NCBI RefSeq assembly: GCF_029094545.1
Contig: NZ_CP117835.1
Coordinates: 2,956,001-3,020,000 of the forward strand
Direction: 5' to 3'
DNA length: 64,000 nucleotides
Source of the DNA: Alkalihalophilus pseudofirmus
Lineage (GTDB): Bacteria > Bacillota > Bacilli > Bacillales > Bacillaceae_D
Shown: one piece after another, positions 17,287 to 19,625 of the stretch
Layout: the number at the start of each line of letters is the position of its first letter
Numbering within the stretch: position 1 is the stretch's first letter
Program-made: the position numbers and the translations under genes
Notes under the pieces: model-generated
What the model was told of the DNA's origin: nothing
The model's database searches: none
What the model saw: the letters and a program-made list of their open reading frames with translations, nothing else

Positions 17287-17330
17287 AATTCAACTCTCCA
17301 TTTCCGCGTCTCGCATTTATCTTGTTTCCC

Positions 17331-17359
17331 ATTATAAGTATGAATAAAAATAAATTCAA
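17331..17359 (-). promoter_or_regulatory. argC promoter overlapped by an ArgR (AhrC) box
   Basis: On the minus strand, -35 TTGAAT (17354-17359) and -10 TATAAT (17331-17336) are 17 bp apart. The plus-strand segment 17340-17359, ATGAATAAAAATAAATTCAA, is close to the B. subtilis ARG-box consensus (CATGAATAAAAATTCAAG) and fills the spacer and -35. Binding of arginine-loaded ArgR there would block RNA polymerase. A second, weaker AT-rich half site follows at about 17361-17388. Confidence 0.8.
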
Positions 17360-17410
17360 CTGTATTTTTATTTTATTTTTCATTTATCTAAATTTTCTTC
17401 TTTAGACAAC

Positions 17411-17435
17411 AAAAAAACGCGGCATCTAACCGCGC
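17411..17435 (-). terminator. terminator of the ctaG-sco-redox unit
   Basis: On the minus strand GCGCGG-TTAGAT-GCCGCG is followed by seven T residues. It lies eight bases after the stop codon of the redox lipoprotein gene. Its presence after the codons beyond the in-frame TGA supports the view that the whole frame is one gene. Confidence 0.85.
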
Positions 17436-17442
17436 TTCTCTG

Positions 17443-17973
17443 TTAATTATTTAATTCTTCCAGCTGTTCGTGAATACGTTCAGCTGTCTCTTCAATTTGT
17501 TCGCCCCATAAATCATTGATTTCATGATAGACATAAGCACCATTTTCATCTAAGATACTTACCCCGCGATAAGACATTTCATCATTTTTCATGTTGACTT
17601 CTTCAAGCACTTCAAATGATTGGTCTGTTAAAAACGAGTACGTAAAAGCACCAGCTTCTTTTAATCGGTTATGATTATCAGGGCTGTCTACGCTAATAGC
17701 ATATAGATCTGCATCCATATCATCAAATAAATGAATATTCTCCTGCAACTGAACTAGTTGCTGCTGACAGAGTCCTCAGCCAACTTCAGTGAAGTGAAAG
17801 AGCACTGTGGCACGATCTTTATTAGTTAGAGAAACTTCTTGATTATCCTCATTAATAAGAGAAAGTTCACCGCTTGGCTCTCCATCTTCCTGTGTACCGC
17901 AAGCTTGCAGCATAAGGGCAATCGCAGCCACAATAAGTAATAAAAGTGAACGGCGTTTTATCCAGTTTTTCAT
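17443..17973 (-). CDS. lipoprotein peroxiredoxin/thioredoxin-like protein with in-frame TGA, candidate selenoprotein
   Basis: One frame runs from ATG 17973 (ribosome site GGAGGTG) to TAA at 17443, broken only by TGA at 17778-17776 (codon 66). Before it are a lipoprotein signal (ALMLQAC, Cys25) and TVLFHFTEVG. After it come GLCQQQLVQLQENIHLFDD and an ordinary AhpC/TSA-like fold (YAISVDSPDNHNRL, then GVSILDENG). The TGA stands where the first Cys of a CxxC motif is expected, giving U66-x-x-C69. Read as Sec the product is 176 residues. A hairpin with SECIS features follows the TGA. Otherwise it is a recent nonsense mutant (TGC/TGT to TGA). It is downstream of sco and ctaG, so a thiol or peroxide role outside the membrane is likely. 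Confidence 0.7.
17745..17778 (-). promoter_or_regulatory. candidate bacterial SECIS element after the in-frame TGA
   Basis: In the RNA of the minus strand, UGA is followed after 14 bases by GCAACU-AGUUC-AGUUGC, a perfect 6-bp stem with a 5-base loop. The loop begins AG, and the apical loop starts 20 bases after UGA. Known bacterial SECIS elements have a G in the first two loop bases and lie about 16-37 bases from UGA, so the geometry fits. A lower helix CUCU/GGAG can form with an internal loop. This is pattern fit by eye, not a folding calculation. Confidence 0.5.
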
Positions 17974-18072
17974 TTTTTCACCTCCACTTACAGTCAATTT
18001 GAGTTACTCACTAGTAGAAGCTTATGAAAAAGGCTTTGATGAGTCAACTAATCTGTTTGCCAAACACTCTAT

Positions 18073-18109
18073 TTAGTTAACCGCCTTACTTAACCGTTTT
18101 AGTTAACCG
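18073..18109. repeat. 13-bp tandem repeat (three copies) across the sco stop codon
   Basis: TTAACCG occurs at 18077, 18090 and 18103, exactly 13 bp apart, with partly conserved spacers. On the minus strand each unit reads CGGTTAA(C/G)TAA. The first unit is the end of the sco gene (Val-Asn-stop), so the last codons with the stop have been copied twice downstream. Confidence 0.7.
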
Positions 18110-18689
18110 TCGCCTTTAAATCTTTTACGATTTCAGTTTGGTCGCTTTGCAGTCCATCATATTTTCTAATTACATTTCCTTCTGGGTCTACTAAGTAAAA
18201 GCTTGTACTATGCATAATCTCATCACTATCTTCTACATCTTGTACAATCGCAGCGAACGCTTCCTTTGAAAGGTCACCTATTTCCTCTTGCGAATAGCCA
18301 GTTAAAAAATTCCAGTAGTTAAAATCGGCCCCGACATTCGTTCCGTACTTATGAAGAACCTCTGGTGTATCTTGTTTGGGATCTACTGTAAATGAAATAA
18401 ATTTCATTTCTTTCCCTTCTGCAATCATCGCATCTTGAAGGCGCTGCATATTAGGAGTCATTGTCGGACAAACAGAAGGACATTGGGTAAAAATCATCGT
18501 AGCAAGCCAGTAGTCACCTTCAAGATCGCTTTTACCAAACGGTTCTCCATCTTGATTTGTAAATTCAAATTCAGGCATTTCTAAATTACCGCCTGAAATA
18601 TCAAATTCGGAGTTTCCTCCCATACCATAAATCCAGCCGCAGCCAGATAAAAAGAACATGCTTATTAAAACGACGATCCATTTCTTCAT
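18099..18689 (-). CDS. SCO1/SenC-family copper chaperone lipoprotein
   Basis: This 196-residue lipoprotein (FFLSGC, Cys17) has the SCO fold. Copper ligands are visible as C70-P-S-V-C74-P and His160 in EIMHSTSFYLVD. It delivers copper to, or reduces, the CuA site of cytochrome c oxidase on the outer face of the membrane. It lies 18 bp after ctaG and upstream of the TGA-containing redox lipoprotein, so the three form an oxidase-assembly and thiol-redox unit. The start ATG has AGAGGAT upstream. It corresponds to YpmQ/ScoC of B. subtilis in function, though not in position. Confidence 0.9.
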   Translation of the reverse strand: MKKWIVVLISMFFLSGCGWIYGMGGNSEFDISGGNLEMPEFEFTNQDGEPFGKSDLEGDYWLATMIFTQCPSVCPTMTPNMQRLQDAMIAEGKEMKFISFTVDPKQDTPEVLHKYGTNVGADFNYWNFLTGYSQEEIGDLSKEAFAAIVQDVEDSDEIMHSTSFYLVDPEGNVIRKYDGLQSDQTEIVKDLKATVN

Positions 18690-18707: not shown

Positions 18708-19625
18708 TTATGATTTTGGAACGGGAATATCACTGATTGTTAATGCCCCGTCCTGCTGTTTCTCTTTTTTCAGCCATTGCTTAAATACGTACCCAATCGT
18801 AAAGCCATACGTAATTTCTTGCATGATCTTCATTAGAACCCCTGCAAGCTGCTGGTCCATTCTCGTTTCTAAAAAGGCAAATGAGTTCGGCCCGCTAAAC
18901 ACCGACATCGGCACATCTGCACCGGCCGGCAGACAATAAGCCATCACAGAAGCCCAGACGCTGGGGTCTGTATAGGTTTGATACAGCGGTTCTGGGGCAA
19001 AAATAATTAATGCACACGCTGGTGTAATGAGAATACCATTTGCAAAAATATAGCCAATTCTTCTTAGGTCTGATAACTGTGATGTAGAAGGAACCGGCGC
19101 TAACATATGCCACCACATTAACGTTGCCGCAATAAATAGAACTTGCTGATACAAACTATGAAGGATCTCTGACTGCATCAACGTGTCAAACATAAATGGG
19201 ACATGATACAATGAAAAAAGTCCGTTAAATAAGAATAAAGCCATGATTGGGCTCCATATGATTTTAAAGACCGGCCCTAGAGCTGTGTGCTTAAATTTAT
19301 TTATAAGAGCTGTAAACACCCATTGAGGCGTGCCAAGCAGCATTAGAGGTACAGCTACAAAATAGGCAAAAACCATTTGCGTCATATGGAAAGTAATCAT
19401 AATATGCCCAGCTACATACAGTGGACTTCCCCATCCAACATATAATGCAATCAACCCAAGGGAAAAGTATATTTTCTTTCTCAAAGGAACAACTTCTGCA
19501 TCCTTAAAACGGACACGCCCTTTGGTTACAATATAAAAATAAATCGCACCAACTATTAAAAGTACAACAATTAACTCTGGAGTCCATAATGCACGCGCCC
19601 CAAAGTTAGTAAATAATGTCTCCAT
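18708..19625 (-). CDS. ctaG: cytochrome c oxidase assembly factor CtaG (Bacillus type)
   Basis: This 305-residue membrane protein has about seven membrane helices and the Bacillus-type CtaG pattern: LYVGWGSPLYVAGHIMITFHMTQMV, LLGTPQW, and a late His-rich WWHMLAPVP. In B. subtilis CtaG is needed for a working caa3 oxidase and is thought to help CuA assembly. It is unrelated to the Cox11-type CtaG. It begins the ctaG-sco-redox unit. The ATG at 19625 follows AAAGGAGGAAGCGC on the minus strand. The oxidase genes themselves are not in this window. Confidence 0.9.
   Translation of the reverse strand: METLFTNFGARALWTPELIVVLLIVGAIYFYIVTKGRVRFKDAEVVPLRKKIYFSLGLIALYVGWGSPLYVAGHIMITFHMTQMVFAYFVAVPLMLLGTPQWVFTALINKFKHTALGPVFKIIWSPIMALFLFNGLFSLYHVPFMFDTLMQSEILHSLYQQVLFIAATLMWWHMLAPVPSTSQLSDLRRIGYIFANGILITPACALIIFAPEPLYQTYTDPSVWASVMAYCLPAGADVPMSVFSGPNSFAFLETRMDQQLAGVLMKIMQEITYGFTIGYVFKQWLKKEKQQDGALTISDIPVPKS

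Follow-up and report, generated by a model that had tools for sequence, protein, structure and literature searches.

Extracytoplasmic oxidoreductases of the CxxC type, such as TlpA of Bradyrhizobium and ResA and StoA of Bacillus, are among the described proteins nearest in kind to the one considered here. TlpA of Bradyrhizobium reduces Sco and apo-subunit II; no TlpA homologue is present in B. subtilis, where other oxidoreductases presumably substitute (available part of PMC9145763). YtkA (CtaK) and Sco serve assembly of the CuA site in B. subtilis, and cytochrome caa3 function depends on CtaG (PMC9145763 and PMC13344008, each in the part available).

Several selenoproteins also come close. 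SelL carries a UxxU motif, and Sec peroxiredoxins carry TxxU within the domain PF00578. The Prx-like thiol:disulfide oxidoreductase selenoproteins in Table 1 of PMC13188914 combine the same Pfam domain with UxxC or UxxU. As set out in the available part of that paper, bacterial SECIS elements have a loop of 3–9 nt, a stem of 4–16 bp, a G in the first two loop positions and a distance of 16–37 nt from the UGA.

The gene analysed here lies in a window of 64,000 nucleotides from Alkalihalophilus pseudofirmus (the whole stretch of DNA that was analysed) and encodes a lipoprotein with one TGA in frame. A first-pass annotation of the window had called a selenocysteine (Sec) enzyme in such a lipoprotein, beside copper-oxidase assembly genes, unusual. 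Sec as such is common in the order, where selA was found in 181 of 397 genomes; the unusual element is a family of Sec lipoproteins that is linked to ctaG and sco and yielded no Cys form in the searches of the order. No row in the available Table 1 of PMC13188914 names a ctaG- or sco-linked lipoprotein, and a literature search that had most subscription papers and supplements outside its scope found no paper that treats this gene or any selenoprotein associated with ctaG or sco. A table in the available part of a 2006 Genome Biol paper counts three Bacillales selenoproteins, and an earlier sighting of the gene among those three is possible.

The gene and its product

The frame comprises 177 codons, and its signal sequence ends in LQAC (Table 1). 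The single frame with one TGA (17778-17776), the surrounding FHFTEVG-TGA-GLCQQQL and the TAA end, all reported in the first-pass annotation, agree with the sequence. The terminator that it assigned to the gene can also be read after the TAA as a GC-rich stem and seven T, a stem which the terminator scan lists on the plus strand only. Annotation that takes the TGA for a stop has probably split the gene into two fragments in many genomes.

Table 1. Features of the Sec lipoprotein gene and its upstream neighbours (window positions)
Feature	Position	Strand	Basis
Sec lipoprotein gene, 176 residues	17443..17973	-	ATG 17973, TAA ending 17443, one in-frame TGA
Ribosome-binding site GGAGGT 5' of the ATG			sequence read, alignment
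Lipoprotein-type signal sequence with lipobox Cys25	17899..17973	-	Cys in 42/42
Sec codon TGA, residue U66 of UxxC	17776..17778	-	same codon TGA in 44/44 loci
Cys69, partner of U66	17767..17769	-	42/42 distinct proteins
SECIS-like hairpin, 6-bp stem and 5-base loop	17745..17761	-	alignment, consensus fold, covariation
Arg136, aligned with conserved peroxiredoxin Arg	17566..17568	-	42/42
Terminator-like GC-rich stem, then seven T, 3' of TAA	17411..17434	-	sequence reading
sco (SCO1/SenC lipoprotein), directly upstream	18099..18689	-	Pfam PF02630, 123.8 bits
ctaG (Caa3_CtaG, cytochrome caa3 assembly factor), upstream of sco	18708..19625	-	TIGR02737, 411.6 bits, over cut-off

Forty-two distinct proteins were aligned, L025 and L026 being left out (their proteins duplicate those of L023 and L022), and 33 of the 42 made up profile A3. 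The lipobox Cys is followed by Gly in 39 of the 42 and preceded by a hydrophobic stretch, as seen in the alignment. Residues invariant throughout are the lipobox Cys, F59, T62, U66, C69, Q72, L73, L76, S94, D117, R136, G137 and G145; every one of the 42 proteins has the UxxC motif. From the signal sequence and lipobox we infer export and lipid anchoring, and the product is very likely a protein held at Cys25, with an AhpC-TSA/thioredoxin-type fold and U66-x-x-C69 as its redox pair. An AlphaFold2 model of the window protein, computed with L022 and L023, had a mean pLDDT of 34.7 and was not used.

Conservation of the TGA and co-occurrence with selA

The first-pass annotation allowed that homologues might all carry Cys in this column, with one mutant strain carrying TGA. 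The codon before xxC is in fact TGA in all 44 loci read, from 42 genomes that include A. pseudofirmus OF4 and A. marmarensis. Since the TGA is common to relatives from 42 genomes, neither a misread nor a single nonsense mutation can explain it. Beyond the hairpin region described below, dN/dS lay between 0.010 and 0.158 in all 11 pairs of relatives compared, which indicates that the frame beyond the TGA is translated and under purifying selection.

Presence of the gene follows selA. In the host's family, 19 of 41 genomes encode a close homologue (E of 1e-60 or lower), with TGA in all 19, and these are the same genomes that have selA above the cut-off. Two genomes (G016 and G021) gave a selA match in two pieces despite the presence of the Sec lipoprotein gene with its TGA; this split would reflect a sequencing error or a recent loss. 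A single-sequence search of the order (397 genomes; E <= 1e-12) returned 70 matches from 67 genomes, all of them with TGA (read in the DNA for the best 30 of the 70 and taken from the table's stop count for the other 40), and all 67 genomes have selA. The hypergeometric p for this co-occurrence of gene and selA (67 of 397) is 4e-27, a value that ignores shared ancestry and overstates independence because the genomes are related.

A search of the same 397 genomes with the profile of 33 members gave 99 rows at E <= 1e-14. One in-frame TGA was found in 81 of them, from 77 genomes, all among the 181 with selA. Scores in the genome searches cover each genome's best candidates from a first pass, which in the profile search meant 8 of up to 142. 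Among the 80 rows stronger than 5e-17, 79 have the TGA and the remaining one is a fragment (G178) lying wholly beyond the Sec codon. The 18 rows without TGA consist of this fragment, at 1.7e-22, and 17 rows at E 5.4e-17 or weaker, known from the table only; two TGA rows (G067 and G218) also fall in that weak range. As TGA rows fill everything above E 5e-17 except the G178 fragment, no Cys form of the family was found above that level among the 397 genomes of the order.

The G178 fragment (G178:C37:367924-368109) contains no stop and lies in a selA-positive genome; its gene may be broken, or its first part may have been missed. Four genomes (G152, G275, G412 and G067) have two TGA rows each, one strong and one weaker. 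The weaker row lies at 5e-16 in G067 and at 1e-40 to 1e-42 in the other three, and a second Sec subfamily may therefore exist. In families f25 and f28, further subfamilies may be represented by TGA rows at E 1e-15 to 1e-28. Two weak matches with one in-frame TGA, both in selA-positive genomes (G025:C5:196473-196910, E 4.6e-5; G024:C1:3189096-3189536, E 5.2e-4), are possible further Sec proteins.

At the level of the phylum, the profile search of 398 genomes gave 36 rows in 32 genomes, two of which belong to the Sec lipoprotein family (the host's own genome and G123). Of the other 34, 18 were aligned and look like peroxiredoxins of the AhpC or Bcp type. Two of these 18 frames, from genomes of other families of the phylum (L087 and L096), have a TGA at the peroxidatic position (TPV-TGA), the known Sec peroxiredoxin pattern.

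A covarying hairpin downstream of the TGA

The hairpin starts 14 nt, and its loop 20 nt, after the TGA, and the loop reads AGUUC in the window; the distance of 20 bases given in the first-pass annotation is exact. Folding of the bases after the TGA, which that annotation had put forward as a check, gave a chance-level result for this one sequence (z -0.66; 39 of 200 shuffles did as well or better), and the single-sequence fold was rejected as proof of a SECIS element; the family alignment, in contrast, shows covariation.

Alignment A2 holds 40 rows, four identical sequences having been left out, and 37 rows are distinct over its 51 columns. The consensus fold of the 40 sequences is the 6-bp stem. 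When 48 nt were folded freely, 30 of the 40 took the five core pairs as their best structure and 10 took another; the 19-nt hairpin alone forms in all 40. Over the 37 distinct rows, 98.8% of cells are paired, compared with 88.6% in shuffles, double-change cells number 28 compared with 9.2, and covariation is 0.330 compared with 0.120; none of 500 shuffles reaches any of the three values. The number of pairs with double changes (3, compared with 2.1; 88 of 500 shuffles) and of further pair types (6, compared with 4.6; 47 of 500) is not unusual alone. Controls with slid partners were at most 45.5% paired.

Columns 21-31 covary at synonymous third and first codon positions (G-C in 22 rows, A-U in 17, G-U in one). 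Columns 24-27 are a second covarying pair. Leu73 is encoded by CTA, CTG and CTC only, and TTA, TTG and CTT occur there in none of the 40 rows, compared with 468 of the 666 Leu codons elsewhere in the same genes. Within the loop, base 2 is G in 40 of 40 and base 3 is U in 38 of 40, while bases 1 and 4 are complementary in all 40 (A-U 19, G-U 10, C-G 9, G-C 2). The hairpin thus stands above chance because the TGA is conserved in 44 of 44 loci, purifying selection acts downstream and the hairpin itself covaries.

It agrees with the loop, stem, G and distance constraints taken above from PMC13188914. The energy limit of -7.5 kcal/mol, also from the available part of that paper, is reached by 38 of the 40 sequences over 48 nt and by 23 of the 40 for the 19-nt hairpin. 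The paired loop bases lie one base closer than in the most common pattern described there.

An Rfam scan of 17300-18100 gave only Trp_leader, at 20 bits, a match taken as chance since it lies below the gathering score of 41. A model of the hairpin (R1), run over the genome, found the Sec lipoprotein gene at 1.5e-16, followed by L110 at E 0.02, the rest being at E 0.09 or weaker. L110 was rejected as a SECIS site on account of its TGA being out of frame with a stretch that resembles AtpB. R1 was built on the hairpin of one family, and other selenoproteins in the genome remain compatible with its result.

Decoding of the TGA

The host genome (4.24 Mb) contains selA (570.7 bits), selB (360 bits) and selD (418 bits), all above their cut-offs, and a tRNA-Sec with anticodon UCA (58 bits), on which ARAGORN concurs; the four lie within 10 kb of one another. 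The machinery named in the first-pass annotation as the thing to look for is thus complete, and with the TGA in 44 of 44 loci and the covarying hairpin it lends strong support to the selenoprotein reading made there. SelB and Sec-tRNA(UCA) would read the TGA as selenocysteine, directed by the hairpin 3' of it. On this comparative evidence, Sec decoding of the TGA is almost certain. This reading can be tested, as the hairpin is conserved and A. pseudofirmus OF4, one host of the gene, can be cultured.

It is very improbable that the TGA is read as another residue (for example Cys or Trp by readthrough), or that it separates the parts of a two-part regulated product. The TGA stands at the start of a CxxC-type motif, the gene turned up in selA-positive genomes only, and the hairpin fits the first three of the bacterial SECIS constraints in the available part of PMC13188914, all of which speak against such a reading. 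The simple nonsense mutation that the first-pass annotation gave as its main alternative, along with sequencing error or a pseudogene, has an in-frame TGA to its credit and can be dismissed, being contradicted by the same TGA in all loci of 42 genomes, a dN/dS below 1 downstream, the covarying hairpin and a presence that follows selA.

Relationship to known redox families

The window protein matches AhpC-TSA of Pfam at 58.6 bits (cut-off 26). AhpC-TSA and Redoxin of Pfam are both matched by all 33 members scanned, AhpC-TSA at E <= 1e-3, and no NCBIfam model was over its cut-off in the eight members scored. In alignments with two solved peroxiredoxins, 2cx3 (2.3e-14) and 2ywn (5.6e-11), U66 falls on the Thr/Ser of TxxC, Cys69 on the peroxidatic Cys and Arg136 on their Arg. 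U66 on the Thr/Ser and Cys69 on the peroxidatic Cys thus give a CxxC-type arrangement on a peroxiredoxin-like sequence. The 36 solved relatives among the matches listed are mostly annotated as peroxiredoxins or AhpC.

By a rule of domain plus motif, the Sec lipoprotein would be filed in the Prx-like UxxC row of PMC13188914, in which its Pfam domain and motif recur; such filing does not imply common descent with WP_010940744.1, the representative of that row. Unlike the proteins of that row, as far as the available table describes them, it is a lipoprotein, is linked to ctaG and sco and has no Cys form found in the order. The model for SelL-related redox proteins (NF040769) is matched by 31 of the 33 members at E <= 1e-3, with a best E of 1.6e-8, but the best score is 34.4 bits, below the cut-off of 120, and the motif here is UxxC. 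With the Sec peroxiredoxins the Sec lipoprotein has the domain and the conserved Arg in common, whereas its Sec lies at the Thr position and Cys occupies the peroxidatic position, so that it lacks a peroxidatic Sec.

Among the extracytoplasmic oxidoreductases, TlpA (NF047696) is matched by five of the 33 members (best 3.9e-5), and ResA (NF002854) scores 22.6 bits, well below its cut-off of 170. The Sec lipoprotein differs from TlpA, ResA and StoA in its peroxiredoxin-type Arg and in having Sec in place of the first Cys. Redoxin_TUGYCR (NF053656), a model for a thioredoxin-fold (seleno)protein with U-G-x-C, is matched by 11 of the 33 members at E <= 1e-3, but at 20.6 bits falls below its cut-off of 100, and the motif here is GUGLCQ as opposed to TUGYCR.

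Genomic context

Directly upstream and on the same strand, ctaG and sco accompany the gene in 31 of the 44 loci, from 29 of the 42 genomes and four families. Of the remaining loci, 12 have neither ctaG nor sco within 1.6 kb upstream, and one (L037) ends at a contig edge. In a midpoint-rooted FastTree tree the 12 unlinked loci form one group apart from the linked ones, with L037 labelled as linked. No terminator-like site was found by the scan on the minus strand between sco and the Sec lipoprotein gene; this result is weak, because the scan also missed the minus-strand stem 3' of the gene.

Other copper-related genes occur at some loci. A YtkA gene, identified with Pfam, lies directly upstream of the Sec gene in L066, and in L054 and L055 a relative of the L066 YtkA protein is encoded between sco and the Sec lipoprotein gene. 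Downstream, a gene for a cupredoxin-like lipoprotein is present in six of the 12 unlinked loci; the six come from a single genus. Nothing copper-related was found among the neighbours searched in L064, L065, L067, L072 and L074 (in L065 and L074 by similarity only).

Ten of the 22 family genomes without selA above the cut-off were searched with Sco, and all ten keep sco. Eight of these keep the order ctaG-sco-argC without the Sec gene, their sco and argC matches lying 134 to 395 bases apart; the other two (G026 and G028) have a different arrangement. As relatives without Sec keep these genes in its absence, the gene is not required for oxidase assembly in general and behaves as an accessory that comes and goes with Sec.

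Proposed function

Taken as a whole, the evidence leads us to favour an extracytoplasmic role for the product as a selenol-disulfide reductase; it would have the AhpC-TSA/thioredoxin fold and probably serve Sco or the CuA site of cytochrome oxidase. In this scheme the selenolate of U66 would attack a disulfide or a copper-oxidised thiol pair, Cys69 would resolve the product of that attack, and electrons would return from a putative donor in the membrane. A guess from the neighbours makes Sco and the CuA-site pair of Cys in oxidase subunit II the likely clients, a task that falls to TlpA in Bradyrhizobium.

For the role in copper-site assembly, to which gene context points, the case for and against is evenly balanced. 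Somewhat more tentatively, the protein may be a selenoprotein dedicated to the copper sites of cytochrome oxidase, in which Sec outside the membrane keeps the thiols of Sco and CuA, or copper itself, reduced in Bacillus-like bacteria. Bacteria of these groups are mostly aerobic and, if the proposal is true, selenium supply would feed directly into the assembly of the respiratory oxidase. Bacillus-type bacteria lack TlpA (available part of PMC9145763), and the Sec lipoprotein would be a candidate for the reductant of Sco and CuA still missing there.

A different function, plausible although unlikely, is that of a Sec peroxidase, in which a lipid-anchored, peroxiredoxin-like enzyme removes peroxide near the respiratory chain and the proximity of sco and ctaG reflects co-regulation with the oxidase, not assembly. 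The AhpC-TSA match of every member scanned, the predominance of peroxiredoxins and AhpC among the solved relatives listed, and Arg136, a peroxiredoxin feature placed on the conserved Arg in both alignments, are in keeping with this. The profile alignments argue the other way: with U66 on the Thr/Ser position, Sec is not where Sec peroxiredoxins have it (TxxU, as in L087 and L096). The linkage, moreover, is to copper-handling genes.

Less probable again is a copper-binding chaperone or cupric reductase, in which U66, Cys69 and other residues would bind or reduce the copper destined for Sco. Such a role would suit neighbours like Sco, CtaG, YtkA and the cupredoxin-like proteins, and Met128, kept in 41 of the 42 proteins, could be counted in its favour. 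A local cupric reductase may be needed for loading of the oxidase, and CcoG has no homologue in Firmicutes (available part of PMC13344008). The alignment of 42 proteins, however, contains no His column conserved at 85% or more and no Met so conserved near UxxC. In this the Sec lipoprotein is unlike Sco, with its copper motif CXXXC...H (PMC9145763, in the part available).

Further observations on the sel cluster

The host selD is itself a Sec gene, with one in-frame TGA in AGUGCK (L018; genome C1:2463274-2464203). Between selD and selB lies a phosphonate-type ABC transporter consisting of an ATPase, a permease and a Phosphonate-bd lipoprotein (L009:3343-5795; genome C1 about 2463342-2465794). 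The available text of PMC5322559 contains, at word level, no mention of phosphonate, Phn or ABC transporter. The same transporter is found inside the sel cluster in four of six sel loci (L009, L115, L117 and L118; not seen in L116 and L119), where it may import a selenium oxyanion.
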